Shown piece after piece: positions 2,770 through 41,316 of a stretch of DNA of 64,000 nt. The stretch comes from Rhizobium sp. TH2. GTDB lineage: Bacteria; Pseudomonadota; Alphaproteobacteria; Rhizobiales; Rhizobiaceae. The notes beneath the pieces are model-generated. The model saw nothing but the letters and a program-made list of their open reading frames with translations, made no database searches and was not told where the DNA came from. The stretch is from assembly GCF_024707525.1 (NCBI RefSeq), contig NZ_CP062232.1, positions 174,316-238,315 of the forward strand, in the 5' to 3' direction. Both the position numbers and the translations under genes were made by a program. Numbering within the stretch: position 1 is the stretch's first letter; every line of letters begins with the position of its first letter.

Positions 2770-3114
2770 CCATTTCATTTTCGTTTTGGCAGGGATGCGC
2801 ACGTGAGCCTGCGTATCTCTGCAATCCGGGGCTGTTCGGCTAGGCGCGCAGATGGGCTGCCTTCTGCCAAGCCGGCTCCCTTGCATCCGTCGTAACATGC
2901 GGGTCCACAGTTCGAATCCCATCAAGCCATTTGAACGTTTATGCTGCTTTCACCCGCCGAACGGACATTCTGTCAGCATCGAAAGCTTTGGCTGCTTTGC
3001 GCCCCCATAGTGGTCATCGAGCCACCGGCCGCCGTTGCTTGCAAAACGGACATGACGCAGTGACAACGCGGTCTTAGTTGCGCCAAAAGCCGCCATTCCG
3101 CCCCATGCGGGTGA
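2770..3114. other. Intergenic spacer between convergent genes
   Basis: No convincing gene lies between the ends of ribB and the sulfite-oxidase-like gene. The only feature noticed is the tRNA-T-arm-like motif at 2901-2926. Confidence 0.6.
2901..2926 (+). repeat. T-arm-like junction motif, copy 1
   Basis: GGGTC, four bases, then GTTCGAATCCCATCAAG. It resembles the T loop and 3' side of a tRNA, but the flanking stem does not pair. It is one of about ten dispersed copies, all between gene modules. Confidence 0.5.
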
Positions 3115-4224
3115 TTAGATCACGAATTCCTCCTCGTACGTCTGAGGCTCCGGAACGACCGTAACCTCCACCGGAACGATCCAATTGGCCGCGTAGCTCT
3201 CGCAGTCGGAACGCTGGAGGTCGGGCTGCACGCACCCCGCCCCATCGATCGCGCGACATCGCAGTATACGTCGCCCCACTTCCTCAGGGGTCCAAATGTA
3301 CTCCCACAAGCGCCATGCATAGGGACGTTCTGTTTCGAGGAGCCTTCCCTCACGCCAGCCCCTGCCATCTCCGGTGCAGACCTGCACCTGCCGGATAGCA
3401 GCCTCGCCGCTCCAGCTGGCTCCGAATATCCGATACGGTTGGCCGACGATGAGACGCGCCCCCTGCACGGGACGCGCGATCTGCGCTTTGACCTCCATCT
3501 CCGCAAGGGGGACCAGCCTGGGTTCCCCGAAGCTGCGCTCCCAACGGAAATAGTCGCGCGCCTGCCAGTAGCCAAGGAACGGTTGCTCCACAACCGTGAT
3601 ATGCGTGATCCACTTGACCCAAGCCATCCCGAACCAGCCACCCACGACCGCGCGTAGCGGGTAGCCGTGATCGCGCGTCAACGGCTCGTCGTTCATCGAA
3701 TAGGCAAGGATCGTGCTGTCAGCGATGGCCTTCTCCAGCGGTAAACTGCGCGCAAAAGCGATGGGGCCGGGAGAAGCCGTTTTCTTGTTGGAGTCGACGA
3801 CGCCGCTGTCGGCGCCTGCGAGCAGAACCTCACATGCGGTTCGCTTAACGCCCGCCATTTCCAAAATCTCGCGCAGAAGAACACCTGTCCACGCGGCATT
3901 GCCGACGGCTCCGTTCTGCCACTGCAACCCCTCCTTCGCCGGCACATAGTAGACGCGCCCGTTCCCTGCACACTCGACGACGGCGGTGAACGTCGTGCTC
4001 CGCATCGCCTTGATGCTGTCGAGGTCAAGTTCGATCGGCCGCTCCACCGCCCCGCCAACGCGCAATCTCCAGTCTCGCGCATCGAGGTCCGGCGACGGGA
4101 AATGGTTTCGCACGAAGAACAGCTCGGTTGGGATCAGCCAATCGGAGAGCGACGCAAACGGAAACTCGATGTTCTGTGGGGATTTCTGTCGAACTATTAG
4201 ACTGGGTTGGTGTGGTGTCGGCAT
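3115..4224 (-). CDS. Sulfite oxidase family molybdopterin-dependent oxidoreductase
   Basis: A 369-residue protein with the molybdopterin-binding fold of sulfite oxidases. The motif VECAGNGR contains the molybdenum-ligating cysteine (Cys85), and the C-terminal half resembles the Mo-co dimerisation domain. There is no twin-arginine signal, no N-terminal haem b5 domain and no adjacent cytochrome c gene, so the electron acceptor and substrate are uncertain (sulfite or another sulfur compound). The ATG at 4224 was chosen because it has a GGGGAG ribosome site; the open frame extends upstream to 4383 but that part has no family similarity. The DUF938 gene lies about 210 bases upstream on the same strand. 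Confidence 0.85.
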   Translation of the reverse strand: MPTPHQPSLIVRQKSPQNIEFPFASLSDWLIPTELFFVRNHFPSPDLDARDWRLRVGGAVERPIELDLDSIKAMRSTTFTAVVECAGNGRVYYVPAKEGLQWQNGAVGNAAWTGVLLREILEMAGVKRTACEVLLAGADSGVVDSNKKTASPGPIAFARSLPLEKAIADSTILAYSMNDEPLTRDHGYPLRAVVGGWFGMAWVKWITHITVVEQPFLGYWQARDYFRWERSFGEPRLVPLAEMEVKAQIARPVQGARLIVGQPYRIFGASWSGEAAIRQVQVCTGDGRGWREGRLLETERPYAWRLWEYIWTPEEVGRRILRCRAIDGAGCVQPDLQRSDCESYAANWIVPVEVTVVPEPQTYEEEFVI

Positions 4225-4434
4225 CGTCCTCGTCTCCCCTTTCAAGAGCACGACGTCGGCTCTCGGTCGCGCGAATTCCGGTACGATCACACCGCCCCTC
4301 GCAGTGCGTCTGTCGCATTCCGCCTTCGGGCCGCATTCTAGCACATACCGCACATTCCTCGGATCGACCTCGAACGGCAGCAAAGCGCCCGAATGCTGCT
4401 ATTGGCCCACGTCTCTTTCGCGCCCGCTTGTCGT

Positions 4435-5106
4435 TCAGGCACTACCGCTGGAGAAGACCAGCAACATATTGTTGGTAGGCATCTCGATCGTCTCGCGGAG
4501 ATTAAGTCCAGCGGCCTCACCCACTTGTTCAAGATCAGCGATATCACGCACACCCCAGGATGGGTTGCGCTCCTTCAGAGCCGCGTCGAAAGCAGCGTTC
4601 GAGGGGGCGTTGTGCGCCCCGTCGCGCATGAATGGGCCGTAGAGAAAAAGAAGCCCACCAGCGTGAAGCAAACGGCCAGCTCCTGCGAACAATCCTAAGC
4701 TTGCCGCCCATGGCGCGATATGGATCATATTGATCGACACGATGGCGTCAAAATGCCCCGTTTGTTCGACGCCCCATTGTCCTGAGCACACATCAATATC
4801 CCGCGGTACCAGCACATTCTTCAGCCCTGTGAATTTGATCCAGCTAGACGTGCTGGTGCGGGCGTCGGCATCCGGATCGCTCGGCTGCCAGGTGAGGTTG
4901 GGCATTGCTCCCGCAAAACACACGGCGTGCTCGCCGGTACCGCATCCAATCTCCAGCACGGCGCCACGTGTTGGAAGGACACGTTTTAGGACAGCGAGGA
5001 TCGGGGCCGAATTTCGCGCAGCGGAAGGTGAGAACATGCGCTGGTCAGCGCTTATGTCGCGCTGTTCCAGCGCAACAGGCGAACGGTCCTTCTTCTCTGG
5101 GGGCAT
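4435..5106 (-). CDS. DUF938 family SAM-dependent methyltransferase-like protein
   Basis: A 223-residue protein with the SAM-binding motif VLEIGCGTGEHAV and the family-typical stretches SPSAARNSAPIL near the start, LTWQPSDPD and SINMIHIAPWAA. These identify the DUF938 family, whose substrate is unknown to me. The length is normal for the family. It is transcribed toward the sulfite-oxidase-like gene and could share a transcript with it, although the gap of about 210 bases is long. Confidence 0.88.
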   Translation of the reverse strand: MPPEKKDRSPVALEQRDISADQRMFSPSAARNSAPILAVLKRVLPTRGAVLEIGCGTGEHAVCFAGAMPNLTWQPSDPDADARTSTSSWIKFTGLKNVLVPRDIDVCSGQWGVEQTGHFDAIVSINMIHIAPWAASLGLFAGAGRLLHAGGLLFLYGPFMRDGAHNAPSNAAFDAALKERNPSWGVRDIADLEQVGEAAGLNLRETIEMPTNNMLLVFSSGSA

Positions 5107-5485
5107 TGGCCTTGAATCCCCTTTGGGCGATGTCTCCCACCTTATAGCTGAAATGATGGGACTGAAACCAAGGATTTCGGACTTACGAAGGGGGTCGTCG
5201 GCGCGTGCGTTCGCCCGAGGGCGACCGAACGTCCACTTCGCGTCAGATCACGCGCCCGCTAGGCTCAAGGTCTCCTTTCGAAAATCGGAGCCCGGAAGCC
5301 GACCGACGGCTTTGGCCCCGGAGCGGTCACTCCATTTGTGCCGCAGCGAGGTCAGCCTGGGACGAATTTTAGATAGGAGGCCTCTGTTGACAACAGGGTC
5401 GTTGGTTCGATTGCCGTTGAGTCGATGAGATAGAAACCACTTTTGCTTGGATCTCGCGTGCTGCGCTGGTGTTCCAACGACATGT
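5107..5485. other. Intergenic spacer upstream of the DUF938 gene
   Basis: No gene is supported in these 379 bases. It holds the junction motif at 5396-5421 and presumably the promoter of the leftward DUF938 gene. Confidence 0.55.
5396..5421 (+). repeat. T-arm-like junction motif, copy 2
   Basis: GGGTCGTTGGTTCGATTGCC followed by GTTGAG. The 5' half matches the other copies, while the 3' half has diverged from CCCATCAAG. Confidence 0.45.
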
Positions 5486-6821: not shown

Positions 6822-6847
6822 GGGTCGCTGGTTCGGTTCCTTTCAAG
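6822..6847 (+). repeat. T-arm-like junction motif, copy 3
   Basis: GGGTCGCTGGTTCGGTTCC followed by TTTCAAG. It lies between the decayed HEAT-like fragment and the end of fabF. Confidence 0.5.
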
Positions 6848-7010
6848 AGCCGTGGCATTGTGCGTGCTCGAACGCGGAAATAATTTCTGCATTGGCGCCC
6901 TCCAAAATCCACTGGGCTGCCTAACCTCGGGCCGATGGTTCGACTCCGCTCAAGGCGCTCCGCAAAGGGGATTTTGTCCGCGCCTTCCAAGAGACATGCT
7001 CGCAGTGCCA

Positions 7011-8279
7011 CTATCCCTTCCAGCGTCGGAACAGCGCGCTTGCATTGACCCCACCAAAGCCGAAACCATTGGATATTGCGTACTCCATTTCCAACGATCG
7101 GGCGTCATTGACCACGAAATCAATTCCGTCGCCCGCCGGATCGGGAGCATTCAAGTTCAGGGTCGGTGGCGCCATCTGATTCTGGAGCGCCAGGATCGTG
7201 AAGATGGCTTCAAGCCCGCCTGCAGCTCCCAGAAGGTGACCCGTCGCTGATTTCGTACCGCTGACTGCTATAGCGGAGTCCGAACCAAAAACACTCTTGA
7301 TAGCCCTGATTTCTCCGAGGTCACCAACTGGCGTGGACGTCGCGTGTGCGTTGAGATGGCGTACCTCACGGGGAGTGATTCCGGCTTGCGCGATCGCGAT
7401 CTCCATGGCGCGACGTGCACCGTTACCATCTTCGGGACCTGAGGTGACGTGATGCGCATCCGCGGTGGTGCCGTAACCGACAAGCTCGGCAAGCGGTTTG
7501 GCGCCTCGGGCAAGCGCATGGCTGAGCGCCTCGATAACAAGGATGCCAGCTCCTTCGCCCATGACGAAGCCATCACGCAACATGTCAAATGGGCGGGATG
7601 CCCGTCTGGGTGTTTCATTGAAGCCGGTGGAGAGAGATCGAGCCGCGGCAAAACCACCAAGACTGACGATGTTCATGCATGCTTCTGTTCCACCGCATAC
7701 CGCGATGTCGGCCTCATTTGACCGGATGAGCCGAGCCGCATCACCGATCGCTTGAACTCCCGCAGCACACGCTGTGACCGGTGCGCCGAGCGGACCTCTA
7801 AATCCATACCTGATCGAGACTTGTCCCGCTGCCAGATTGACCAGGAATGATGGCACCGTGAACGGTGAGAGTCGTCGCACACCGCGCTGATCAACCGTTC
7901 GCACGGCTTCAGTTATGGCGGGAAACCCACCGATACCTGATGCAATGATGGTCGCTGTTCGAAGCCGCTCCGTGTCTGAGACTGGCTTCCACTTCGCTTG
8001 AGCAAGCGCCTCTTCCGCCGCCGCCAGTGCGAAGAGAATAAATCGGTCTACCTTGCGCTGATCCTTAGGAGCAAAAACGGTATTTGGATCGAAGCCTCCT
8101 TCCGGGTCTTCCTCGAGCGTGGGAACCGTACCGCCGATCTTCGACGGCAGGTCTCCCACCACATCGTCCGGAAGCCGCCGAATGCCGGAATGACCCGAGA
8201 GCAACCGAGACCAAGAGGTTGGCACATTGGTTGCGAGGGGGCTGAGAGCTCCCATCCCTGTTACAACGATGCGACGCAT
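7011..8279 (-). CDS. fabF: Beta-ketoacyl-ACP synthase II (FabF/KAS II)
   Basis: A 422-residue condensing enzyme for fatty-acid chain elongation. The catalytic triad is visible: Cys171 in VTACAAG, His312 in NAHATSTPVGD and His348 in GTKSATGHLLGAAGG, with the conserved Lys343. The ATG at 8279 has a GGAG site and starts the conserved MRRIVVTGMG; the open frame extends 26 codons further upstream without similarity. It sits in a cluster with TetR, thiolase, thioesterase, oxidoreductase and desaturase genes, so it is likely a specialised second copy rather than the housekeeping enzyme. Confidence 0.94.
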   Translation of the reverse strand: MRRIVVTGMGALSPLATNVPTSWSRLLSGHSGIRRLPDDVVGDLPSKIGGTVPTLEEDPEGGFDPNTVFAPKDQRKVDRFILFALAAAEEALAQAKWKPVSDTERLRTATIIASGIGGFPAITEAVRTVDQRGVRRLSPFTVPSFLVNLAAGQVSIRYGFRGPLGAPVTACAAGVQAIGDAARLIRSNEADIAVCGGTEACMNIVSLGGFAAARSLSTGFNETPRRASRPFDMLRDGFVMGEGAGILVIEALSHALARGAKPLAELVGYGTTADAHHVTSGPEDGNGARRAMEIAIAQAGITPREVRHLNAHATSTPVGDLGEIRAIKSVFGSDSAIAVSGTKSATGHLLGAAGGLEAIFTILALQNQMAPPTLNLNAPDPAGDGIDFVVNDARSLEMEYAISNGFGFGGVNASALFRRWKG

Positions 8280-8458
8280 GCTTTCTCCAAATGTCATTTG
8301 ACTGGTCAGCCGTATGGCCGGAACGTGCTGGCGCCGGGCGCGGTCAGCGCTTGTCAAGTGTGTGCAGAACTGAGCGACCCGAACCCACGCGCGACGCGAT
8401 CACGACCGCGGTCGAAATTGAGATTACAGCGTTGGCTCTGCTTCCGGAGGCGCATCTC

Positions 8459-9046
8459 TCATGCTCCTGACTTAGCGTCCCCAATGCGCCTAACCTCATC
8501 GGCAGCCGCATCCAGGAAGCCTTGGGATAATGTTTCATCATTGACGAGACGAGAGAGCGTGACGGCGCCCACCATGAGGGATAGCATCGCCATGGCTTTG
8601 TTGCTGGGTTGCAAGCTCTTGGTCTCTTCCAAAAGTTCGTCCAAAACTTGGACATGCGCCCGGATTCCGTCCTCAAATGGGATTCTCACGTCCGCGCTTT
8701 GGCGAGCCGCATCAGATCCGAGCGCCACCAACGGACAACCCTCGCCCTTGTTCTCGCGATGTCCCGTTGACAGATAAAACGCAACGATCGCCGCGAGAGG
8801 ATCAGAGCTAGCGGCTGCGGCCGTTGACCATCTGCGGGTAGCATTTTCGATCGCGCGCCTTGCAGCCTGCGCCGCCAGATCGTCCTTGGACGCGAACTGC
8901 TTATAAAAGCCGCCTTGGGTAAGGCCGGCGCCTTTCATTAGATCCTTCAGACCAATCCCGTCGAAACCATGCTCGCGAAAAAGTCGGCTCGCAACATTGA
9001 TGACGGCTTCGCGATTTGCCTCCGCCTGTGTGCGGCTCACTCTCAT
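8459..9046 (-). CDS. TetR/AcrR family transcriptional regulator
   Basis: A 195-residue repressor with the N-terminal helix-turn-helix at about residues 12-50 (core FREHGFDGIGLKDLMKGAGLT divided over helices 2-3, then QGGFYKQFASKDDL). The C-terminal ligand domain resembles the group that controls thioesterase and quinone oxidoreductase genes. It is transcribed with fabF downstream and faces away from the thiolase. An imperfect dyad just upstream (9081-9098) could be its own operator. The ligand is unknown. Confidence 0.9.
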   Translation of the reverse strand: MRVSRTQAEANREAVINVASRLFREHGFDGIGLKDLMKGAGLTQGGFYKQFASKDDLAAQAARRAIENATRRWSTAAAASSDPLAAIVAFYLSTGHRENKGEGCPLVALGSDAARQSADVRIPFEDGIRAHVQVLDELLEETKSLQPSNKAMAMLSLMVGAVTLSRLVNDETLSQGFLDAAADEVRRIGDAKSGA

Positions 9047-9080
9047 TTCGGCCTCCGTTAGATTTTAGTCGCCATCTTTA

Positions 9081-9098
9081 ATTCAAATAGAGTTTGAT
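9081..9098. promoter_or_regulatory. Dyad upstream of the TetR gene, possible operator
   Basis: ATTCAAATAGAGTTTGAT contains the inverted pair TCAAA/TTTGA with a 5-base spacer, 35 bases before the TetR start. The assignment is by position and symmetry only. Confidence 0.35.
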
Positions 9099-9294
9099 TG
9101 CAATCTGTAGGATGTTGAGAGAGCAAGCCGAAAATCGGCCATACCGCGTTAGGCGGGCCCGTGGCCCTCGTCGTTGGGACGAGGAAGAGCGTGTAAGGCG
9201 CGGTCGTGATAGATGTCAGCGCAAAGAAATTCACGACCCGACATCAGCACTGTGCTGCCTGGACCGAATTCGTCGCGAGCCAAACCGGCTAACG

Positions 9295-9404
9295 GGAAAC
9301 CGCTCGATGCCCTCTTCCGCTACCTACATACGGTACCTATCCTTGAACAGAAACGGTTTGGTGACGACGGCGACAGTGAGTATTCCAGCCTTGCCGGTGA
9401 CACC
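9295..9404 (-). pseudogene. Short ftsZ remnant
   Basis: Read on the minus strand, the segment gives KAGILTVAVVTKPFLFK, then RYRM, a stop codon and VAEEGIERF. This matches the FtsZ signature in which LTVxVVTKPF is followed by a GxxRMxxAExGI block. Only about 35 codons survive, with an internal stop. It lies between the TetR promoter and the end of the broken thiolase. Confidence 0.55.
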
Positions 9405-9425
9405 ATGGGACGATCTGGCCCTTTC

Positions 9426-10618
9426 CTATTGCTGTCGCTCGACAGCAATGGCGGTCGCCTCTCCGCCACCGATGCAAAGCGAGGCTACGCCTCGTCTCAA
9501 GCCCTGTCTCGCCAGAGCGTGGAGGAGGGTAACGATCAGGCGGGCACCGGTCGCGCCTATCGGGTGTCCAAGTGCGCAAGCACCACCGTTCACGTTGAGG
9601 CGGTCGCGTGCTATGCCAAGATCCTTTGCCGCTGCCATCGCCACCACCGCGAACGCTTCATTGATTTCGAAGAGATCCACGTCTTCAACGGTCCAGCCCG
9701 CTTTACTGAGCAGTTTTCATATCGCGGGAATGGGAGCGGTCGTGTACCAGGCTGGCTCTTGGCTGTGGGTAGCATGCGCCTTGATTTCGGCGAGGATAGG
9801 CAGGTCATCGCGCTCGGCGATCGAACGGCGAGTCAAAACGAGCGCCGCAGCACCGTCCGCATTTGCGGATGCGCTGGCTGCGGTAATGGTGCCGTCGGCC
9901 CGAAACGCAGGCCGAAGAGTTGGGATTTTTTCGGGAGACACCTTCAAAGGATGCTCGTCGGTATCGACGATCTTTTCCCCCCCTTTACCGGAACTCTGAG
10001 AGGCGCAATTTCATCGACGAACGATTTATTCTCGATTGCGGTGCGGGCGCGGGTCAAGGATTCTATGGCATACGCATCCTGATCAGCCCTGGTAAACTGG
10101 TAGGCCGCCACGGCGGCTTCACCGAAGTCCCCCATGGCGCGGCCCGGTTCGTAGGCGTCCTCCAGGCCATCAAGCATCATGTGATCGAAGATGTGGTCGT
10201 GGCCGGCGCGATATCCCGAGCGGCCCTTTTTTAGAAGGTACGGCGCGTTCGACATTGATTCCATCCCGCCCGCGACAACCATATCAGCTGTGCCGGCGAG
10301 GATAAGATCGTGCCCCAGCATGGCGGCTTTCATCCCGGACCCGCAAACCTTGTTGATGGTCGTGGCACCGACTGCATCCGAGAGACCTGCTCCACGTGCT
10401 GCCTGCCGGGCGGGGGCTTGTCCTTGTCCCGCGGGAAGCACGCAGCCCATAATGACCTCATCCGGACCATCGAGTGCGAGGTTCGCGCGCTCCAGTGCGG
10501 CGCGGATCACATGCGCGCCGAGAGTCGTGGCCTGTACTGGCGCCAGATCGCCAAGGAAGCGACCGAGCGGCGTTCTGACGGCAGACACAATAACGATTGG
10601 GTCGTGATCCCTAGTCAT
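9426..10618 (-). pseudogene. Acetyl-CoA acetyltransferase (thiolase), broken by a frameshift and a stop
   Basis: The locus covers a full-length thiolase of about 397 codons. The N-terminal part has the nucleophile Cys92 in INKVCGSGMKAAM and the C-terminal part has [19 protein letters not shown] and CIGGGEA. The frame is lost at a run of seven G near 9976-9982 (minus strand), after which the protein resumes one frame over with EKIVDTDEHPLKVSPEKIP. A second lesion is an in-frame TGA at 9717-9719, between PIPAI and KLLSKAGW, where homologs usually have Arg. Both active-site regions survive in sequence. The homopolymer slip could be an assembly error, but the stop codon is a separate lesion. Confidence 0.85.
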
Positions 10619-10722
10619 GGATATTCCTTTCGAGCAGCCTGAAGGGGTGAGTTCGGGGGCAAGGCGTCACCAGGGCCGATGCACCTCTTGCTTCGAGACC
10701 TGGGTGAAGCACACAGGCAACA

Positions 10723-11250
10723 TTATGCGTCTCGTCGAGTGATCAAGCAGGTCGATGTGCCGTGGGCAAAGAGCTTGCCTTGCAGGCTCTCTATCCTTCC
10801 CTCCAACGTGATGAGCGTCCGTCCACGTGAAATAACATCGCCCGTGACGCGCAATTCGCCGCAGTCAGCAGAAATGGGCCGGACGAATTTCACAGCAGTC
10901 TCGTGAGATGGGCAAAGCTCCCCCAGAGCCAAGGTTGTGTGCGCTGCAAGCGCCATGGCAGTGTCGAGCATTGTCATGATCCATCCTCCATGCACCGTTT
11001 TCATCGTGTTGAGAAAACGATGCTCGGACACCGCACGCAGCTCTACCTTACCTACTTCGGGCGGTAGCAGGCTGAAGGGCAGCATCTCTGCCATCGGCGG
11101 CCGCGGCAGATTTCCGGCGGCAAGCATCGCAACAAACTCTAGACCGGTTGTGAGCCCAATCGACACTTGCCCGGGCTGCTCCCCAGTCGATCCTGGGCTG
11201 CCTGACATTAGTGAACTCCCACATTGGTCGTTCCGGTCTTCGGATTTCAT
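10723..11250 (-). CDS. PaaI-family hot-dog thioesterase
   Basis: A 175-residue single hot-dog protein. The motif FLNTMKTVHGGWIMTMLDTAM contains the conserved HGG and the catalytic acidic position, followed by the C-terminal strand pattern TGDVISRGRTLITLEG. Such enzymes hydrolyse acyl- or aryl-CoA thioesters. The ATG at 11250 has a GGAG site; the open frame upstream is not conserved. It is transcribed just upstream of the thiolase and probably belongs to the same TetR-controlled lipid cluster. Confidence 0.87.
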   Translation of the reverse strand: MKSEDRNDQCGSSLMSGSPGSTGEQPGQVSIGLTTGLEFVAMLAAGNLPRPPMAEMLPFSLLPPEVGKVELRAVSEHRFLNTMKTVHGGWIMTMLDTAMALAAHTTLALGELCPSHETAVKFVRPISADCGELRVTGDVISRGRTLITLEGRIESLQGKLFAHGTSTCLITRRDA

Positions 11251-11302
11251 CGAAGGTTTCTCCTGAGCCAAAAAAAGCCCTTGATTTTTTATATTGCAAA
11301 TG

Positions 11303-11325
11303 ACATCTAAGTTCAAGTTAGATGT
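11303..11325. promoter_or_regulatory. Perfect 8-bp inverted repeat, likely operator
   Basis: ACATCTAA, a 7-base spacer (GTTCAAG), then TTAGATGT. It lies 53 bases upstream of the thioesterase start, between leftward and rightward genes of the lipid cluster. Size and place fit a TetR-type operator. The binding protein is inferred, not shown. Confidence 0.5.
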
Positions 11326-11407
11326 TGAATACAATCTTACTGCGCTTGGAAGACGGCGTCTGCGTGCGTTCGCAACGAACAAAACGGTCAGGGAGCACTC
11401 AGAACGA

Positions 11408-11530: not shown

Positions 11531-11602
11531 CGTGAAACGGATGGTGCACCTCATGCAATCAGCAGAACCTGAAAGAAGAATACCAATGCACGAGAACAAG
11601 AC

Positions 11603-14097: not shown

Positions 14098-15756
<1,659 letters not shown>

Positions 15757-32849: not shown

Positions 32850-33191
32850 TCTAATCCACTGGCACCCGGGTAAGAGGCCCGGCGAAATCGCCGGTGACGG
32901 AACTCAGTCAATCATACTTGAGGGCGGCAAGTCGGCGCCAGTGAATTCGATTGCTCGAGGTGTTGGTCAACATAAGTTTGCTCGTCTCGTTGGCCTTACC
33001 ACCCGGCGAGCAGCATCGGGTGTTGGTGGATGGAGTGTCTGTTAAGCACCGACACGGCTCGATGAACTTCCCACCATTCCAATGGTCATTTGCGCACTTG
33101 CTGAGACTGGTGGTGATGTTCTGGCAAATGACGGGGTCTGGGGTTCTGCTCTCATCAAGACCGATGGAGTTGGAACGCCAAGTTCTGACGG
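32850..33191. other. Intergenic spacer upstream of yhaO
   Basis: No gene is supported in these 342 bases. It contains the presumed yhaO promoter and the junction motif at 33133-33159, and it separates the yhaO-yhaN module from the amide operon. Confidence 0.55.
33133..33159 (+). repeat. T-arm-like junction motif, copy 9
   Basis: GGGGTCTGGGGTTCTGCTCT followed by CATCAAG. It is closest to copies 6 and 8. Confidence 0.45.
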
Positions 33192-33791
33192 TTATACGCC
33201 GCTTGACGCCACCACTGCGGCGGCCACCGATGCGATCGTCGCATTCGAGCTCTGCGCCTTGTCCCGGAGGCGGCGATAGGCCTCGTCCTCGGTGATGTCG
33301 CGCGTGTCGCACAGGATGGCGACGGCCTTTTCGATGACGCGGCGGGACTTCAGTGTTTCATCCAGCGTCCGGATGCGTTGCTTGAGGCGGTTTTCATGGT
33401 TGGCAAGCCCGATCGCGGTCGTCAGTGCCGCCAATATGCCGAAGATGCGAATGGGCTTTGAGATCACGCCATGCGCGTTCATGCGCTGCAATTCACCGAG
33501 GATTTCAGGTGTTTCGAAAGCAATGATGGCGATGCGAGCGATCGCATGGGCGCTCGACATCCATGACAGCGACCGGTCGCCCTGATTCCGGTTGAGAAGG
33601 AAGAGAACGATGTCGATATTGTCGGGAAGGACGTCCGGTGGAGGCCAGCGGCATTCGACCGTGCATCCAACACGCTTCAGATGCGCCAGCAGGATCTCAC
33701 GCTCGGAGTCTTCGGGGTGGATGACGAGCATATGCACGCGGCGCAATTGCCGCAGCAGGCTTCCATCATCCACTTGAAGGTTCTCTGTCAT
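33192..33791 (-). CDS. amiR: AmiR-like ANTAR-domain antitermination regulator
   Basis: A 199-residue protein with a pseudo-receiver domain (VIHPEDSEREILLAHLKRVG, lacking a normal phospho-acceptor context), a coiled-coil linker and a C-terminal ANTAR RNA-binding domain (RRVIEKAVAILCDTRDITED, then EAYRRLRDKA). In Pseudomonas, AmiR antiterminates the amidase operon and is held inactive by AmiC until an amide binds. Here it is the last gene of the uptake/amidase operon and overlaps the AmiC gene by four bases. Confidence 0.88.
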   Translation of the reverse strand: MTENLQVDDGSLLRQLRRVHMLVIHPEDSEREILLAHLKRVGCTVECRWPPPDVLPDNIDIVLFLLNRNQGDRSLSWMSSAHAIARIAIIAFETPEILGELQRMNAHGVISKPIRIFGILAALTTAIGLANHENRLKQRIRTLDETLKSRRVIEKAVAILCDTRDITEDEAYRRLRDKAQSSNATIASVAAAVVASSGV

Positions 33792-34921
33792 ACCGAAACA
33801 CGCTGGCCAATCGATCGGTCATAGGCAATAAGATAGGGATCGGCCCTCACCATATTGGGGCTACGCCAGACGACTTCGAACTCGCCGTTCTCGTTCGACA
33901 GGCCCACCGATGGCCGCAACATGAAATGGTTCGTATCCGCGTCCAACACCGTGTCGCCACCCGGACCTTTGAACACGATTTCAGGGAGCGCTGCAAGAAC
34001 GGCTTGGCTGTCCGTGGTTCCCAGTCGCGCCACGGCTTGTGCGTAGATATGCAGTTGCGTGTAGCAGACTTCCGAATAGACACCAGGGCAGGATTGGTCC
34101 CCGAAACGCCTGGCGAATGCCGCGCGGAATCGCCTGTTATCACTAAGGTCGAGCGCGCCGAAATAAGGCAGGACAGAGAGATGGCCCTTACGCGCGGCGG
34201 CAGGCATCCTGGCAAGCTCGGATTCCGTGGTTGTGAGCGACGCAATGGGTGGCATTCCCGTGCCGTCAAATTGCGAATGGCATTCGTAGAGCCGCACGCT
34301 TTCGTCTCCGACCGTCGTAGAGATGATGGCATCGACACCCTGATCCCTGACCAATTGCAGGAAAGGGGTGAATTCTCCCGGCTGGGTGCCGAATTCGAAA
34401 TATTTCGGCCCGACGATCCTGCCGCCGCTATCGGCGACGAATTCCATCACGATGCGGTTGATCTCGCGGGCGTAGAGCGTGTCCGAGCCGATCAGCGCGA
34501 TGTTCTTGCCATGGTTCCCGAACACATATTCGAGAAGCGGAACGATGACCTGGTTGGGCACCGCGCCGCCATAGATCACATTGGGGGAATATTCGAAGCC
34601 TTCGTAAACCGACGGATAGAAGAGGATACCGTTGAACCGTTCGACGACCGGCAGAACCGCCTTGCGGCTGGTCGACAGGCAGCAGCCGAAGATGGCATCG
34701 ACACCGTGTTTCAGCAGCAGTTCTGTCGCCAGTTGCGCGTAGCGCTGGTCGCTTCCGGCCGGATCGAGAATGACCGGCTCGATCATTCGCCCGCCGGCGC
34801 CACCCGCCGAATTGATCTCGTCGCAGGCAAGAAGAATACCCTGGAGATGGGCGGTCTCGCTGACCGCCATCGGACCGCTTTGCGAGAACAGAACGCCTAC
34901 CTTTATTGTTTCCATCGCCAT
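33788..34921 (-). CDS. amiC: AmiC-like amide-sensing negative regulator (periplasmic-binding fold)
   Basis: A 377-residue periplasmic-binding-type protein without a signal peptide. It starts METIKVGVLFSQSGPMAVSE and contains GCCLSTSRKAVLPVVERF and FYPSVYEGFEYSPNVIYGG, which are AmiC/FmdD/UrtA-family landmarks. The absence of a leader and the adjacent ANTAR gene favour a cytoplasmic AmiC-type sensor over a transporter subunit. The ATG at 34921 lies four bases after the amidase stop; a second ATG at 34915 is also possible. Confidence 0.87.
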   Translation of the reverse strand: MAMETIKVGVLFSQSGPMAVSETAHLQGILLACDEINSAGGAGGRMIEPVILDPAGSDQRYAQLATELLLKHGVDAIFGCCLSTSRKAVLPVVERFNGILFYPSVYEGFEYSPNVIYGGAVPNQVIVPLLEYVFGNHGKNIALIGSDTLYAREINRIVMEFVADSGGRIVGPKYFEFGTQPGEFTPFLQLVRDQGVDAIISTTVGDESVRLYECHSQFDGTGMPPIASLTTTESELARMPAAARKGHLSVLPYFGALDLSDNRRFRAAFARRFGDQSCPGVYSEVCYTQLHIYAQAVARLGTTDSQAVLAALPEIVFKGPGGDTVLDADTNHFMLRPSVGLSNENGEFEVVWRSPNMVRADPYLIAYDRSIGQRVSV

Positions 34922-34925
34922 GACC

Positions 34926-36287
34926 CTAGACATTTCGCTTGAGTTTCTTGTCGATCCATTCCGCCACCGCAAGCAGGGCCTCATCTTCACCCGGCCTGCC
35001 CATCAACATCATGCCAACCGGCATCAGGCCGGGCTCACGCGGCATTGGAATGGAGATGCAGGGAAAGCCTGCAAGGTTTCCGATCCAGCAGAACCAGGTC
35101 ATGCTGTCTTGTGTCGTGACCCTGCGGCCGGAGAATTCCTGCCATTCCTCGTCCTCGCGCGGTGCCACGATGGGCAGGGTCGGGAGCACGAGCGCATCCC
35201 AATCTCCAAGGCCCCTTGTCAGTGTTTCGACAAGATGGCTCCGAATGCGCTGGGCCTTGATCAAGTCTAGGCCGCTCAGCATCCCTCCCGCAACAAGATG
35301 CGCCTGGGTGACAGTGGAATATGCGCTCATGTCGGCGTTGCTGCGCTGGACATGATATGCCGACGCCTCGCAGTGAAGGATGGCCTCCCATGCGGCGAAA
35401 TAGCTGTCCATATGATCGAGCGTGCTTTCGCGGACCGACGCATCGGATGCATCGAGGGCTGCTCGCAATGTGCCATCTACCTCGTTGGAGCGTTCCAGTC
35501 CCGGGCCAACGAGATGGATCAACCTGGGCCTGCCGGAGGAGCGCGCCTCCTGGAAGGGCTTCGCGCCATCCGTGGCCGGATCGCGCGCATCCTGGCCGAA
35601 GAAATAGGGCAGGATCAGCGAGATGTCCTCGAGCGATGCCGTCATGGGTCCCGGTGCGTCCAGCGACCAGCTCAACGGCAGCACGCCGTGGCGCGATGCA
35701 CGGCCATAGCTCGGTTTGAAACCGTAGATCCCGCAGGCTGCCGAGGGAATTCGAACGGAGCCGCCGGTATCGCTGCCGAGCGCCGCCGACACGATTCCAG
35801 CCGCCACTGCCGCGCCTGAACCACCGCTGCTGCCGCCGGTGATGCGGTTTCTGTCGTGCGGATTGCGCGTCGCGCCGAAGCTCGATGTGCTGTTTGTCGC
35901 GCCATAGGCCCATTCGTGCATGTTGGTTTTGCCCAGCACCACTGCGCCGGCCCGCCGGAGATTGGCGACTACCGTCGCGTCCTCTCCCGACGGTTCGAAT
36001 GGCAGCGCGTTCGAGCAGGCGGTGGTCGGATAATCGATCGTCAGATAATTGTCCTTGACCGCGATCGGGATACCGTCAATCGGGCTGAGCCGTCGCCCCA
36101 GTCGCCGCCGTTGGTCCGCCGCCCTGGCCTGTCGCATGACAATTGGCTCATCGACTGCGACGAAGGCGTTCAGGTCCGAAAACGCTTTCGCGCGGCCAAG
36201 CGCAGCTTCGGCCAGGGAGGAGGCTGTCCGGCTGCCATCGGCCAAGGCGGCGATCTGGGAAGACATGGAATCATGCGCAATGGTCAT
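34926..36287 (-). CDS. Amidase signature family hydrolase
   Basis: A 453-residue amidase. The Ser-cisSer-Lys triad context is visible: the lysine in IAVKDN, then [14 protein letters not shown], with the serine nucleophile in [15 protein letters not shown]. The length is normal. It is co-transcribed with an amide/urea-type ABC transporter upstream and the AmiC/AmiR sensor downstream, so the imported compound is probably hydrolysed by this enzyme. Its start overlaps a 46-codon gene by four bases (ATGA). The exact substrate is unknown. Confidence 0.9.
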
Positions 36288-36424
36288 GAGCGATCCTCGG
36301 CAACGAAGCCATGGGCCGGTTCCGGCAATTGCAGCGTGAATTTCCTCAGGCCGCCGCGAATGCGCTTCAGGGTGGCTTCAATCATCTTCAATTGGTCGTC
36401 AGTGAGTTCGTTCTGATGTGTCAT
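36284..36424 (-). CDS. Small protein coupled to the amidase gene
   Basis: A 46-codon reading frame: start MTHQNELTDDQLKMIEATLK, end FVAEDRS. Its stop overlaps the amidase start (ATGA), and its start lies one base after the LivF stop. Tight packing in the operon argues that it is translated. Amidases of the AtzE type have a small partner (AtzG), and this protein has a similar place and size. That is a positional analogy only, as I see no clear sequence match. Confidence 0.55.
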   Translation of the reverse strand: MTHQNELTDDQLKMIEATLKRIRGGLRKFTLQLPEPAHGFVAEDRS

Positions 36425-36425
36425 C

Positions 36426-37124
36426 TCAGACTCCCAGCAATTCCTGTTGCAGTTGGCGGTTGGCGCGGAAACTCTCTCGATCGGTCTCCAGGCGGATCGC
36501 GCCCTTCTCCATCACGTAGAGGCGCTCGGCGATCGACAGACAGAAGTCGAGGTCCTGTTCGGCGACCAGGATGGCGATGTTGCGCTCCTTGTTGATGCGT
36601 TTGAGAATCCCCGAAATATCGTCGATGATCGAGGGCTGGACGCCCTCGGTGGGTTCGTCCAGCAGCAGGATTCGCGGCTGGATCGCCAATGCGCGGGCAA
36701 GAGCGAGGATTTGCTGCTGTCCGCCCGAGAGGCCACCGGCGAGATCGTCAGCCTTCTGCCTGAGGATCGGGAAATCCTCCATGGCCTCGGCAACCGCCCG
36801 CTTTCCATTGTGGCCGTTGGCCTCGGCGGCGACCGCGATGTTCTCGATGACGGTCATGCGCGGGAAAACATAGCGTCCTTGCGGGACATAACCGATGCCG
36901 AGGCGAGCGCGCCTGGCCGGCGAGGCTGGCGCGATGGCGCCATCGATCTCGACCTGTCCCTGCATGGCAGGCAGCAGCCCAGTGGCGAGGCGCATCAGCG
37001 TCGATTTGCCTACCCCGTTGCGGCCGAGCAGGCCGACAACTTCGCCGGCACCCACCGTGAGCGACACATCGCGGACGATTGTGGTCTTGCCGTAGCCGCT
37101 CGTTGCGTTGACGATGCTAAACAT
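36426..37124 (-). CDS. ABC transporter ATP-binding protein, LivF/UrtE type
   Basis: A 232-residue ABC ATPase. Walker A is GRNGVGKST, the Q loop is in GYVPQGRYVFP, the signature is LSGGQQQILALARAL, and Walker B is ILLLDEPTEG. The segment LDEPTEGVQPSIIDDI is typical of LivF/UrtE. It overlaps the end of the upstream permease-ATPase fusion by eight bases and completes the five-component uptake system. Confidence 0.92.
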   Translation of the reverse strand: MFSIVNATSGYGKTTIVRDVSLTVGAGEVVGLLGRNGVGKSTLMRLATGLLPAMQGQVEIDGAIAPASPARRARLGIGYVPQGRYVFPRMTVIENIAVAAEANGHNGKRAVAEAMEDFPILRQKADDLAGGLSGGQQQILALARALAIQPRILLLDEPTEGVQPSIIDDISGILKRINKERNIAILVAEQDLDFCLSIAERLYVMEKGAIRLETDRESFRANRQLQQELLGV

Positions 37125-38934
37125 GCTGGCGTCTCCCGAGATAGATATCGAGGACGCGCTCGTTGGCTCTCAGCGTATCGATGTCGCCCTCGGCGAAGAC
37201 TTCGCCCTGATGGAGCACGGTGACATGGCCATCAAGTGTGCGGACAAAATCCATGTCGTGCTCCACCACGACTACGGTCGTGTGCCGCGCAAGCGTGCGG
37301 ACCAGGACGGAGAGTTCGCGGGTTTCCTCGTTGGTCATGCCTGCCGCAGGCTCGTCGAGAAAGACGATGCGGGGTGCGAGGCAGAGCACCATGCCGATAT
37401 CGAGCCATTGCTGCTGGCCGTGCGACAGGGCCGATGCCTCGACATCCGCCTGTTCCGGAAGCCCGAGCATCGCCATGATCTTGCCGCTCACTTCGTCTGC
37501 AACTTTGGGATCGCGGGTCCGCGCATAGGCGGCGATCCAGAGGTTGTCCCGGACCGTAAGGGCGCCGAAGACCTGCGGTTTCTGGTTCTTGACACCCATG
37601 CCGTCGCGGACGCGGGCAAAGATCGCCTTCTTCGTCACGTCGCCGCCGCCGAGTTCGATCCGGCCGGCGTCGGGTCCGTAGATGCCGACGCAGGTCTTGA
37701 GGAAGGAACTCTTGCCGGCGCCGTTCGGTCCGATCAGCGAGTAGGGGCGACCGGGTTTGAAGCTTCGGCTGACGCGGTTGACAGGGATCACGCCGCCGAA
37801 GCGCTTCAGTAGCTCGGTGGTGACGAGGTGCTTGGCGGGACCGGCACTGCGCGCGGCATCTTCAAGAATCCCATCCAGCACTTTCTCGTCGATCACCACA
37901 GGCTTGCAGTTCTTGGCTGCGTCATTGGGATCGGGAAGCGAGCGCTTCCAGAGACCGCCGACCGAGCCGACCAGTCCGTTCTGCAGGAACAGCACCAGGA
38001 CGATCAGCACACCGCCGAGGATGAGAGTCGTCTGGCCGCTGACAGCGCCGCCGCCCAGCCAGTAGGACAGGCCACCGATCGCGAGAGCCCCGACAAAGGC
38101 ACCGGCCAATGTGCCGAGCCCGCCGACAAGCACGTAGATCGGCACCAGAAGCGCCTCCTGCACGGAGAAGATCGACGGGCTCAGGTAGTTGGACCAGGCG
38201 GCGAACAGTGCGCCGGCCACACCGGCGATCGCGCCGGCATAGGCGAAGTTCGCGAGCTGATATTTGCGGACATCATAGCCGAGAAGTTCGGTCTTCTGGG
38301 CGTCGATGCGGATGCAGTCGATCACCTTGCCGAACGTGCCCTGCATCAACCAGCGGGTCAGGAAATAGAGCAAGGCTGAAACGACGATCACCAGAACGAG
38401 CGCCTGCGCGGGTCCGAGTGGCTCGGCGGCGGGATCGAGAGCAAGGACGTAGCCGGGAATGTTCGACAGCCCGTTGTCGCCGCCGATTTCCGCCTCGCCG
38501 ACCTTGATCTTCAGGGATTGCGAGAGCGACCAGAGCAGCAGGGTCAGCGTATAGGTGAGGATCGTACTTTGAAGCGGCCCCATCCTGGCGAAGAACATGA
38601 TACCGCCAAGCACTGCCGCGACCGCCGCGCCGAAGATGGCGCCACCGAGCAAGGCCCAAAGGACCGAGCCACCAATGACCGGCAGGAGATTGATGGCAAC
38701 GACGCTGCCGAAATATCCGCCAAGGCCGAAGAAGGCTGTCTGGCCGAGGCTGAGCAATCCACCTCGGCCCCAGACGATGTCGAGGCTCAGGCCCAGCAAT
38801 CCGAAGATCACCCAGGATGTCGCGACATAGGCCAGGTAAGGATCGATGAATCCGGCGGAGCCGAGACCCAGAATGGCCGCTGTGCCCGGGAAGACGAGGC
38901 CGGCATGCTTGTAGAGAAAATGTGAGATGTTCAT
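37117..38934 (-). CDS. Fused ABC permease (LivM/UrtC) and ATP-binding protein (LivG/UrtD)
   Basis: A 605-residue fusion. The first 350 residues are a LivM/UrtC-type permease with about eight to ten membrane spans (SLDIVWGRGGLLSLGQTAFF is the family landmark). The second part is an ABC ATPase with Walker A IGPNGAGKSS, the UrtD-type signature LSHGQQQWLDIGM and Walker B IVFLDEPAAGM. The ATG at 38934 was chosen because it starts the permease; the frame stays open upstream only as an antisense shadow of the LivH gene. The signature motif points to a urea or short-chain amide system rather than an amino acid one. Confidence 0.9.
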   Translation of the reverse strand: MNISHFLYKHAGLVFPGTAAILGLGSAGFIDPYLAYVATSWVIFGLLGLSLDIVWGRGGLLSLGQTAFFGLGGYFGSVVAINLLPVIGGSVLWALLGGAIFGAAVAAVLGGIMFFARMGPLQSTILTYTLTLLLWSLSQSLKIKVGEAEIGGDNGLSNIPGYVLALDPAAEPLGPAQALVLVIVVSALLYFLTRWLMQGTFGKVIDCIRIDAQKTELLGYDVRKYQLANFAYAGAIAGVAGALFAAWSNYLSPSIFSVQEALLVPIYVLVGGLGTLAGAFVGALAIGGLSYWLGGGAVSGQTTLILGGVLIVLVLFLQNGLVGSVGGLWKRSLPDPNDAAKNCKPVVIDEKVLDGILEDAARSAGPAKHLVTTELLKRFGGVIPVNRVSRSFKPGRPYSLIGPNGAGKSSFLKTCVGIYGPDAGRIELGGGDVTKKAIFARVRDGMGVKNQKPQVFGALTVRDNLWIAAYARTRDPKVADEVSGKIMAMLGLPEQADVEASALSHGQQQWLDIGMVLCLAPRIVFLDEPAAGMTNEETRELSVLVRTLARHTTVVVVEHDMDFVRTLDGHVTVLHQGEVFAEGDIDTLRANERVLDIYLGRRQHV

Positions 38935-38945
38935 CTGTCCGGTCC

Positions 38946-39812
38946 TCACATCTTCTGTCGCCAATTGGCGGAAATGCCTGACGGAAACAGCCAGAGGATC
39001 AAGGCCGTGACGAGGAAGAAGAAGACGTCGCCGGCGACAGATGTCAGGAAGCTTGCGGTCACCGATGTACCGCCGCCGAGGCCGAGTGCGGCGATGACGC
39101 TGCCCGTGAGTGTGACCGGCCCGGCGACGACTACCGTTAGAAAAGCCTTGATGACGAAGGCAAAACCCATGGATGGCGTGGCGGGCACGATGGGCAGCAG
39201 CACTGCGCCGGCAAAGCCCGCGAGGCCGCAGCCGATCGCAAAGGTGACCGTGTTGACCCGCTTCGCCTCGATGCCGATTGCGAGCGCCATTTCGGGTTGC
39301 TGGATGGATGCGCGTGCCTTCCGGCCATAGGCTGTTCTCGTCATCAGGAGGTAGACAAAAATGGTCATCGCGGCGGCCACCACGATCATCAGCAGCGGAT
39401 AGACCGCCAGGCTGTAGCGACCGATGTGCACGTTGTAATGCGGCATGCCGATGCCTGGCGTTACCGTGCCGAAGATGAGAACCGCGAGCTGATAGAACAC
39501 CATGCTCAGGCCCCAGGTCGCGAGCATCGTATCGAAGAGCCGGCCATAGAGCCGGCTGATGATCAGCACTTCTACAAGCGCGCCGATCGCCATCGTCACC
39601 GCAACCGCAATGGGGATGGACAGGATGTAGGGCACGCCAGCTTGCGTTGCGGACAGGGCTGCATAGGCGCCGATCATCAGGAACTCGCCATGTGCAAGGT
39701 TGATGACGCCCATAAGCCCGAAAACGACGGCAAGTCCGATCGTCGCGATCAGCAGGATCGATGCGCTCGAGAGCGACGACAGCAGGACGGTCGCCAGGTA
39801 GTCGACTTCCAT
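38946..39812 (-). CDS. ABC transporter permease, LivH/UrtB type
   Basis: A 288-residue membrane permease. The landmark GLMGVINLAHGEFLMIGAY is near the N-terminus, there are about eight hydrophobic spans, and a C-terminal GSVIAALGLGG segment follows. The ATG at 39812 (MEVDYLA) is preferred to the upstream in-frame start. It pairs with the permease domain of the downstream fusion protein. Confidence 0.92.
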   Translation of the reverse strand: MEVDYLATVLLSSLSSASILLIATIGLAVVFGLMGVINLAHGEFLMIGAYAALSATQAGVPYILSIPIAVAVTMAIGALVEVLIISRLYGRLFDTMLATWGLSMVFYQLAVLIFGTVTPGIGMPHYNVHIGRYSLAVYPLLMIVVAAAMTIFVYLLMTRTAYGRKARASIQQPEMALAIGIEAKRVNTVTFAIGCGLAGFAGAVLLPIVPATPSMGFAFVIKAFLTVVVAGPVTLTGSVIAALGLGGGTSVTASFLTSVAGDVFFFLVTALILWLFPSGISANWRQKM

Positions 39813-39856
39813 TGGAACCTCCGGAATGGCGCGCCCGGATCGGGCGCGCATCGGCA

Positions 39857-41065
39857 TTATTCGGCTTCAGGCGTGAAATGCTTGGCGAGCGTGGGGTTCG
39901 CCACGAGGTCGCACTTGTCGTTCTCATAGAGCGGAGGCGTTTCCTCGAACGTATCGACGATCTTGAAGCTGTGCTTGTCGTCGCCCTCGGCAATATAGAT
40001 GTTCTGCCTGAGGTGATGCGATCCGGGTTCGAGCACGACCTTGCCATTGGGCGCGTCGAACGTCAGGCCGCTTTCGAGCGCGGCGATGACTGCTGCCGAT
40101 TCCGCCGAACCTGCCTTCTTGACCGCTTCGGCCCAGAGATGGACGGCGTTCCAGACATCGACTGCCTCGGAAACGATCGGCGTGTCGGAGCCGTATTTTG
40201 CCTGCCAGGCCTTGACGAACGCGGCATTGGCTGGGTTCTCGACAACCTGGAAATAGCCCTGGCTGGCGATCAGGCCCTTGCCGGCATCCGGCGAGACGAC
40301 GACCTGCTGATTGCCCGAGCCGTAGTTGGTCGAGACGACGCCGATGCTGTCCTTGAGACCTGCGGCGGCGAATTGTTCGAGGAAGCCAGTCTGATTAGCA
40401 CCGACAGGAAGGGCGACGACGAAGTTCGGCTTGGCGGCCTGGATCTTCTGGATGGTTGGCGAATAGTCGGTCACCGTCAGCGCCAGGAAATCCTCGCCGA
40501 CGACTTCGGCGCCCATGGATTCCGCATATTCATGGACCCAGTGCGCGGAGATGGTGCCGAAATTGTAGTCAGGCGCCATGATGTAGATCTTGTTGCCGTA
40601 TTTCTTGACGGCCCAGTCGATCAGGACGGAGAGCTGCTGCGAGGCCGACGGGCCGGTGACGAAGGTCTGCTTGTCGCAGGCGCCGCCTTCATAGAGCGAG
40701 GCGTAGAAATAAGGCACATTCGCCTTGCGCACGATCGGCCGGATTGCTTCGCGCGACGAACTGGTCAGGCCCGCAAACAGCGCATCGATCTTGTCGCTCA
40801 TCAGGGCCGTGTTGGCGTACTGGATGTATTTGCTTTGCTCGGATTGGGCATCGTAGGACACGACCGAGATCGGGGCACCCAGCAGGCCGCCCTTGGCGTT
40901 GATGTCCTCGACCGCGAGATTCAGCGCATTGTTCTGCTGAATTCCGTAAATGTTGAGGCCGCCGGTGAGATCGAAGATCGCGCCGATCTTGGTTTCGGCC
41001 AATGCCGTGCCCGCGAGAAGCGCGGACAAGCTTGCCACGGATAAAGAGAGAAGTTGTTTTTTCAT
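39857..41065 (-). CDS. ABC transporter substrate-binding protein, UrtA/FmdD-like
   Basis: A 402-residue periplasmic-binding protein with a signal peptide (MKKQLLSLSVASLSALLAG, cleaved after about residue 23). The mature part starts ETKIGAIFDLTGGLNIYG. Stretches such as GLTSSSREAIRPIVRKANVP and FYASLYEGG match the urea/amide binding-protein group rather than LivJ. It is the first gene of the operon and follows a leader of about 150 bases with a long inverted repeat. Confidence 0.9.
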   Translation of the reverse strand: MKKQLLSLSVASLSALLAGTALAETKIGAIFDLTGGLNIYGIQQNNALNLAVEDINAKGGLLGAPISVVSYDAQSEQSKYIQYANTALMSDKIDALFAGLTSSSREAIRPIVRKANVPYFYASLYEGGACDKQTFVTGPSASQQLSVLIDWAVKKYGNKIYIMAPDYNFGTISAHWVHEYAESMGAEVVGEDFLALTVTDYSPTIQKIQAAKPNFVVALPVGANQTGFLEQFAAAGLKDSIGVVSTNYGSGNQQVVVSPDAGKGLIASQGYFQVVENPANAAFVKAWQAKYGSDTPIVSEAVDVWNAVHLWAEAVKKAGSAESAAVIAALESGLTFDAPNGKVVLEPGSHHLRQNIYIAEGDDKHSFKIVDTFEETPPLYENDKCDLVANPTLAKHFTPEAE

Positions 41066-41096
41066 GTCGTGTTCCCCTTCGCTTGTGCGAGTAGGG

Positions 41097-41147
41097 CAGA
41101 ACACCAATAGACATAAAAAAAGCGCCGTTATCCGAACCGGTGTTCTG
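41097..41147 (-). promoter_or_regulatory. Leader inverted repeat upstream of the amide operon
   Basis: A perfect 9-bp inverted repeat (CAGAACACC at 41097-41105, GGTGTTCTG at 41139-41147) encloses 33 bases including a run of seven A (seven U in the leftward transcript, 41115-41121). It lies between a possible promoter and the first gene of an operon that encodes its own ANTAR antiterminator. A role in antitermination is therefore plausible, but no convincing terminator stem directly before the U run was found. Confidence 0.45.
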
Positions 41148-41189
41148 ACTACGTCGCCTAGGTTTTCGTGCGCCTCATCGCGCAGCCTT

Positions 41190-41218
41190 GATCATGTACA
41201 AAAAGGAGGCCGTGTCAA
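41190..41218 (-). promoter_or_regulatory. Possible promoter of the amide operon
   Basis: On the minus strand TTGACA (complement of 41213-41218) is followed after 17 bases by ATGATC, with TACATG as an alternative -10. The -35 is a perfect match; the -10 is weak. Confidence 0.4.
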
Positions 41219-41290
41219 GGGGCAACTTTCAAGCTTGCTGAGGGCGCGTCGAAAGCGCTCGCGCGGCTCGCATCCATGCCGTTAATCAGT

Positions 41291-41316
41291 GGGTCTACGG
41301 TTCGATTCCGATCAAG
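41291..41316 (+). repeat. T-arm-like junction motif, copy 10
   Basis: GGGTCTACGGTTCGATTCCG followed by ATCAAG. It lies in the 410-base divergent spacer (41066-41475) between the amide operon and the sugar operon. Confidence 0.5.

Follow-up and report, generated by a model that had tools for sequence, protein, structure and literature searches.

Symbiosis, catabolic and defence genes reside on the plasmids of rhizobia and agrobacteria, whose make-up is strikingly mosaic. Crossover in integrons takes place close to one site end, which leaves the greater part of the site with a single cassette. The accessible part of PMC9668308 reports that integrons are entirely absent from Alphaproteobacteria and that clusters without an integrase occur commonly among integrons and can be acted on in trans. 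In the dif (pdif) modules of Acinetobacter plasmids, the pairs of sites are inverted and have XerC/XerD arms (accessible part of PMC10132070). We analysed a 64,000-nucleotide stretch of Rhizobium sp. TH2, contig C2 (NZ_CP062232.1) from 174316 to 238315, called the window here. A preliminary description of this window had listed ten copies of a degenerate motif resembling a tRNA T arm. We describe this motif as a 29-base site, GGGYCGNNGGTTCGAWTCCCWTCAAGRCS, which is intergenic, keeps a single orientation per replicon, and is very probably where a system of mobile gene cassettes on Rhizobiaceae plasmids recombines.

The genome consists of four contigs, the chromosome C1 (5.88 Mb) and C2 (238,315 bp), C3 (223,174 bp) and C4 (98,262 bp), the last three each opening with a repC-bearing operon on the plus strand. 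We built a 25-column profile from the ten listed copies, whose training set therefore lies inside the scanned sequence. At a threshold of at least 16 bits, this own-trained profile gave 22 plus-strand and no minus-strand matches on C2, 0 and 4 on C3, 2 and 0 on C4, and none on either strand in the first 199 kb of C1, with no match in simulated sequences. A second, outside profile came from 90 sites of other genomes and is mildly circular, since these sites were first found with a model of own-genome sites. The outside profile found 12 plus-strand matches in the window at 12 bits or more and 9 at 16 bits or more, none on the minus strand at either threshold, versus 1 and 0 in five simulated windows pooled, and a chance origin of the motif was rejected on this comparison. 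At the lower threshold, it matched 9 times on the plus strand and never on the minus strand in the rest of C2, 0 and 4 times on C3, and 2 and 0 times on C4; the first 199 kb of C1 had a single minus-strand match, and none at 14 bits or more.

All ten listed copies were recovered on the plus strand, four of them with starts moved by one base (12817, 24877, 25249 and 33134), together with an eleventh copy at 6929 that was absent from the list. Two positions that had been called weaker relatives, 24801 and 52951, both score below 10 bits with the outside profile. The sequence at 24801 may be a site fragment, because a duplicate of that stretch at C2:30873 scores 16.6 bits with the own-trained profile.

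The sites lie between genes. On C2 to C4, 28 of the 30 matches at 16 bits or more touched no called gene, and the two that did were the sole two opposing their replicon's strand; the calls came from a simple home-made gene caller that covered 78% of C2 and only 52 to 59% of C3 and C4 and thus under-calls. On annotated plasmids, compared by eye with the gene tables, 17 of 17 sites fell between listed genes, the PLSDB gene table being incomplete (pTiAB2/73 contributed 11, four Rhizobium plasmids five and an Agrobacterium plasmid one; one W12 site was left out). The preliminary description had named a motif equally common within operons or in shuffled sequence as grounds for abandoning the idea, and neither the gene positions nor the simulated windows bore this out. 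Among the matches listed, contigs of other genomes with at least two non-tRNA-like sites carried them on one strand each (18 of 18 contigs, 39 sites); own-genome matches and those resembling tRNA (model 3-26 or 2-27) were not counted. Site orientation did not track gene direction and stayed the same along C2 from 31 to 216 kb.

The sites are spread through the family. A scan of 297 family genomes gave a match (E ≤ 0.01) in 159, tRNA genes included, and 24 genomes from other families of the order had no match to GGTCNNNGGTTCGATTCCCATCAAG with up to two mismatches allowed. An Infernal model trained on 27 plasmid sites recovered all 27 in a scan of the TH2 genome, plus one further match at E ≤ 0.013. 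This further match, C1:1559062-1559084 on the minus strand, is the sole chromosomal one at that threshold (L139, L054); its two ends (ATGCCT and AGGCAT) could form a pairing like that of an acceptor stem, and ARAGORN calls no tRNA there.

Segments bounded by these sites recur as units in relatives. Along pTiAB2/73, the intervals between one site and the next hold first RelBE, next a large protein together with a PIN and a DNA-binding protein, and lastly HipAB; on A. fabrum pAt2, a site lies about 220 bp downstream of a CBASS operon. The PIN (toxin-like) cassette common to genome G003 and pTiAB2/73 is 3765 bp long and 91% identical, with both ends at sites. In PLSDB, two A. tumefaciens records (NZ_CP039899 and NZ_CP039890) have it at 99.5% identity with ends at 1149 and 4906 (sites 1150-1174 and 4882-4906), and in NZ_CP133675, NZ_CP048586, NZ_CP092894, CP018001 and NZ_CP039925 it is 90.0 to 92.7% identical, its ends no more than 2 bp from those positions. 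Its surroundings differ among these plasmids of several Agrobacterium and Rhizobium strains. The HipAB module starts at 4875 to 4881 in at least 15 Agrobacterium records and one Rhizobium record among the matches listed, and its far end reaches the next site (6790-6791) in three records and stops about 90 to 130 bp short of it in all the others. Plasmid pAtCFBP5877a carries the PIN cassette followed by a VapC cassette bounded by its own sites; the 0.9-kb VapC cassette has a 99.3% match in NZ_CP109970 that starts and stops at sites, and that record has two further matching places. Counted over 57 records (60 listed of 851, less three that matched the whole query), 46 of 114 alignment ends lay within 10 bp of one of four sites versus 2.3% expected, as did 18 of 40 distinct end positions.

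The large cassette protein, of 786 residues, has relatives in 75 genome loci, which we split by record title into 45 rhizobial loci and 30 of other groups (Devosia, Azospirillum, sphingomonads, Brevundimonas and others). Sites at 20 bits or more occurred in 28 of the rhizobial loci, all 39 of them in the same orientation to the gene, and there were none at this score in the other groups or in the reversed sequences. At 16 bits or more, 51 of 51 rhizobial sites shared one orientation, and the other groups had 2 sites, one per strand. A site lay 88 to 90 bp past the end of the large-gene match in nine loci; this spacing was taken from 46 of the 75 loci and the orientation control from all 75. 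These comparisons show that cassettes of 0.9 to 3.7 kb with one to three genes have moved as units between direct sites.

We mapped the exchange on a close set, the loci with close cassette relatives plus L142 and L210, leaving out distant loci and the upstream sites of L216 and L268, which lie at other distances. In the eight sites with the cassette as left flank, positions 0-24 are alike apart from 7, 18 and 19, and the sequences diverge after that. Eleven sites with the cassette as right flank scatter at position 20 and before, agree over 21-25 and nearly agree beyond. Because the left set agrees up to 24 and the right set from 21, the exchange falls within positions 21-24, and the crossover is thus confined to four bases, TCAA. 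A first estimate on a wider set had put the breakpoint at about positions 16-22. In an all-against-all comparison of 99 sites, the shared flank is the left one alone in 15 pairs and the right one alone in 14, which fits an exchange in the motif's 3' part; the count is limited to pairs in which a single flank is clearly shared, and the four pairs sharing both flanks are sites at most 110 bp apart. The site is asymmetric, with about 21 fairly conserved bases ahead of the exchange point and about four behind it, and by-eye inspection found no convincing palindromic arms. A palindrome, GCGGAAATAATTTCCGC, or a near copy of it directly follows some sites (C2 near 109435, window near 6850).

The confinement of the exchange to four bases in the close set tells against homologous or illegitimate recombination between short repeats kept for some other function, such as a segregation or transcription signal, as does an orientation that ignores gene direction and stays constant along C2, and we consider that explanation very unlikely. 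Movement of the cassettes by a single-strand (HUH, IS91-like) transposase is also improbable. IS91 inserts beside CAAG/GAAC tetranucleotides, and the exchange point TCAAG and the one-sided conservation of the site would suit such an enzyme. However, full sites at both cassette ends would require a pre-existing target site, and no transposase of this name is annotated in the stretches of pTiAB2/73 that we viewed.

In the cassette system that we favour, the two ends of each cassette would bear unequal parts of the site, the long one (GGGYCGNNGGTTCGAWTCCCW) and the short one (GRCS), with TCAA linking them. Exchange of two sites within TCAA by a site-specific recombinase would let whole cassettes enter, leave or change order, and sites in direct repeat would accumulate into arrays. 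The exchange would be enzymatic, carried out by a tyrosine recombinase often acting in trans, and may pass through a circular intermediate as in integrons. The longer, operon-sized intervals of the window would be cassettes as well. The idea of a new dispersed repeat used in building mosaic replicons was right and can now be sharpened to module-exchange sites with a crossover in TCAA. Calling the copies recombination hot spots is true and at the same time too weak, because the exchange is precise where it can be mapped. The suggestion of decayed attachment sites finds no support, the sites being alike across the family and recently used (cassettes 99.3 to 99.5% identical in different settings).

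Several observations weigh against this cassette system. Of the 40 distinct alignment-end positions, 22 lie off the sites, 8 of these falling inside the large gene or at its end. In 40 of the 60 records listed, we found no empty site whose flanks matched on both sides, and no further search for one was made. Counts over relatives overstate significance because the relatives are not independent. Modules of the window itself (GroEL, sugar, AAA) match other plasmids, and none of the matches listed (25 for each) ends at both sites; for the sugar operon after 41291, homology to an R. anhuiense plasmid starts at 41375, about 55 bp past the site, and the R. anhuiense copy has no site at its start. 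Moreover, the sequence data tie no enzyme to the sites. The site-bearing contigs G089:C2, G266:C27, G305:C35, G123:C4, G317:C28 and G077:C11 have no PF00589 match, the first four being drafts except G089. The best candidate, a tyrosine recombinase (PF00589) of 390 residues, is missing in 12 of 35 hand-chosen site-bearing genomes, and of 17 plasmids encoding it, 9 showed no site at the cut-off applied.

The 390-residue recombinase, encoded near repABC, has one intact copy on each of C2, C3 and C4 (89 to 92% identity) and none on C1, and its nearest solved structures are Cre and the Cre derivative Tre (E of about 1e-6). A broken second copy lies at C3:72266-73211 on the plus strand. Of 21 replicons or contigs, 19 have the gene pointing against the listed sites: all three of our own, W06, W08, W09, W12 and W14 with W16 as an exception, and 11 of 12 draft contigs, the exception being G288:C11. 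In this count, W09 was scored by its stronger site, and W11, whose two weak sites lie on opposite strands, and W17, with a single weak site that agrees, were left out. Where the orientation of recombinase to repC is reversed from the usual, in C3, W06 and W09, the sites follow the recombinase over repC, and it is the only full-length PF00589 match on pTiAB2/73. These results would fit an integron-like platform of integrase and array, a possibility that we hold to be rather unlikely. Besides the absences given above, three of the nine site-free carriers (W13, W02, W04) have no clear diverged array, and toxin-antitoxin genes beside the recombinase in 15 of 17 annotated loci would fit a plasmid-maintenance enzyme. 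By eye, nothing site-like was seen in the 330 bp upstream of the gene in 18 plasmids or in its flanks on C2 to C4, where the distance to the nearest site is 4.7 kb (C3), about 20 kb (C2) and about 27 kb (C4). Shared backbone ancestry could also explain the orientation of the recombinase to the sites.

Alternatively, an enzyme encoded elsewhere, XerC/XerD or another tyrosine recombinase, could act in trans on the plasmid sites, which we put forward tentatively. Site-bearing contigs lack PF00589 matches as listed above, and PF00589 genes were found on other contigs in 11 of 11 genomes searched. A recombinase in trans is possible because integrase-free integron clusters can be served in this way, and dif modules of Acinetobacter, also with toxin-antitoxin genes, are a precedent in the accessible part of PMC10132070. 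For XerC/XerD in particular, the consensus of 96 sites lacks both the layout of 11-bp arms around a 6-bp spacer and the XerD arm TTATGTTAAAT quoted in that part of PMC10132070, and the dif modules described there are inversely oriented pairs, whereas the sites here are direct repeats. The 390-residue recombinase and one other have only weak NCBIfam matches at the level of XerA/C/D. A second recombinase (C2:16272-17414) has relatives in 714 PLSDB records (E ≤ 1e-40); apart from a remnant in L124 that lies about 0.6 kb from a site, it showed no link to the sites.

The T-loop-like core of the motif is real, and a true tRNA-His gene (L062) matches the site pattern with 2 mismatches, while a tRNA-like sequence lies ahead of one cassette-end site (L063). 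Such features could mark decayed tRNA genes or old tRNA attachment sites that are now inactive. However, ARAGORN found no tRNA in the window or in C2, C3 and C4, and the would-be T stem shows no covariation in 96 sites: positions 7 and 19 pair at a frequency of 0.24 (0.23 expected) and 6 and 20 at 0.29 (0.34 expected), and positions 5-7 pair with 21-19 no more than chance. The tRNA reading was rejected on these two results, which agree with the preliminary description that the T stem does not pair in most copies and that these are not tRNA genes. The copy at 49555, the only one of 12 in the window with all five T-stem positions paired, had been singled out as a better tRNA-like copy; it is possibly a tRNA remnant because its T stem pairs fully, but as a site it is borderline. 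Exchanges between 99% identical sequences contradict inactive tRNA relics unless the records are assembly artefacts, and we regard such relics as highly improbable. Within the cassette system, the T-arm likeness may come from an origin in tRNA-type attachment sites or from recognition shared with them. A hairpin sequence of the GCGGTTCTTCGGAACGC type overlaps the site start at the end of the PIN cassette (L123 near 5590, L142 near 6575), with tRNA-like sequence upstream.

The cassette borders were established on the relatives' cassettes, and within the window itself the support consists of its sites, their strand, their position and one duplication. The duplication spans 1163 bp, is 88% identical to C2:29816-30975, and terminates within the 24877 site. 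The sites and putative cassettes of the window are collected in Table 1.

Table 1. Sites and putative cassettes in the window (window coordinates; scores from the outside profile)
Feature	Position	Strand	Score (bits)	Remarks
Cassette site	2901..2929	+	29.2	Between ribB (DHBP synthase) and Mo-cofactor oxidoreductase
Cassette site	5396..5424	+	19.9	Between Mo oxidoreductase module and methyltransferase gene
Cassette site	6822..6850	+	35.4	
Cassette site	6929..6957	+	35.1	107 bp past the 6822 site
Cassette site	12817..12845	+	15.8	Between zinc alcohol dehydrogenase and fatty-acid desaturase
Cassette site	17721..17749	+	22.9	Adjoins glucoamylase-like gene
Cassette site	24877..24905	+	29.9	After LacI-type regulator
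Cassette site	25201..25229	+	41.6	Window maximum
Cassette site	25249..25277	+	14.3	48 bp past the 25201 site
Cassette site	33134..33162	+	27.5	Between AAA/metallophosphatase pair and AmiR-amidase operon
Cassette site	41291..41319	+	33.9	Between amide operon and sugar ABC operon
Borderline site	49555..49583	+	14.5	T stem fully paired
Putative cassette (not seen to move)	6958..12816	.		Ketoacyl synthase, TetR regulator, thioesterase, zinc alcohol dehydrogenase
Putative cassette (not seen to move)	12846..17720	.		Fatty-acid desaturase, GroEL/GroES pair (~14100-16080), glucoamylase-like
Putative cassette (not seen to move)	25278..33133	.		AAA protein, AAA_27 protein, metallophosphatase
Putative cassette (not seen to move)	33163..41290	.		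AmiR, periplasmic binding proteins, amidase

The window has further features. An FMN riboswitch (1874-2020, plus strand, 115.6 bits) lies ahead of the ribB-like gene, and an ALIL pseudoknot (22294-22409, plus strand) suggests a frameshifting IS3-type transposase gene. The glucoamylase-like gene (PF10091, 16294-17586) has relatives at C2:4626-5801 and C4:4565-5739 (84% to the C4 copy). Direct repeats at 20617-20757 and 28194-28335, of 87 to 88% identity and near-constant spacing (7577 to 7579 bp), are probably paralogous gene segments.

A literature search that included literal site strings (0 papers) turned up no description in which we recognised the site, most subscription papers being outside its reach. 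Among described systems, integrons, including the integrase-free clusters (CALINs), resemble the sites here in their direct repeats, cassettes that behave as units, toxin-antitoxin and defence cargo, and arrays without an integrase. The crossover near one end, which leaves most of the site in one cassette, is a further likeness. Unlike integron sites, the site here is 29 bp long, without a hairpin, and without enrichment of GTTRRRY/RYYYAAC core boxes (50 in 32175 nucleotides around 99 sites versus 57.1 in shuffled sequence). An attC-like site folding as a single strand was rejected, as the 99 sites, taken as 36 nucleotides each, showed no excess folding (mean z of 0.07 on either strand). The cassettes that moved have one to three genes and up to 3.7 kb, also unlike integrons, and other intervals hold whole operons.

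The pdif modules of Acinetobacter are similar in joining toxin-antitoxin and other genes on plasmids at short sites, and they differ from the sites here, which are direct on every contig and at every large-gene locus counted above. tRNA-targeting islands and tycheposons share the T-loop-like core, and in them such fragments mark the borders of cargo, but C2 to C4 have no tRNA gene and several site-bearing contigs have no PF00589 match. RIME and REP repeats are likewise short, intergenic and dispersed. Both are palindromic, whereas the site here has no excess folding and keeps to one strand per replicon.

A precise module-joining site would supply a mechanism for the mosaic structure of these plasmids, make cassette borders readable from sequence and gene flow countable, and bear on the reported lack of integrons in Alphaproteobacteria. 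As far as its sequences tell, the system is one that works like an integron or a Xer/dif module but fails the site features of either that we tested, and we would place it among the site-specific cassette arrays. We lean towards the view that it is a third kind of cassette array, the integron-equivalent of Rhizobiaceae plasmids, with sites unrelated to those of integrons and dif modules, an unrecognised recombinase acting in trans, and a cargo of toxin-antitoxin, defence and metabolic modules up to whole operons, which would explain the mosaic of many rhizobial and agrobacterial plasmids.

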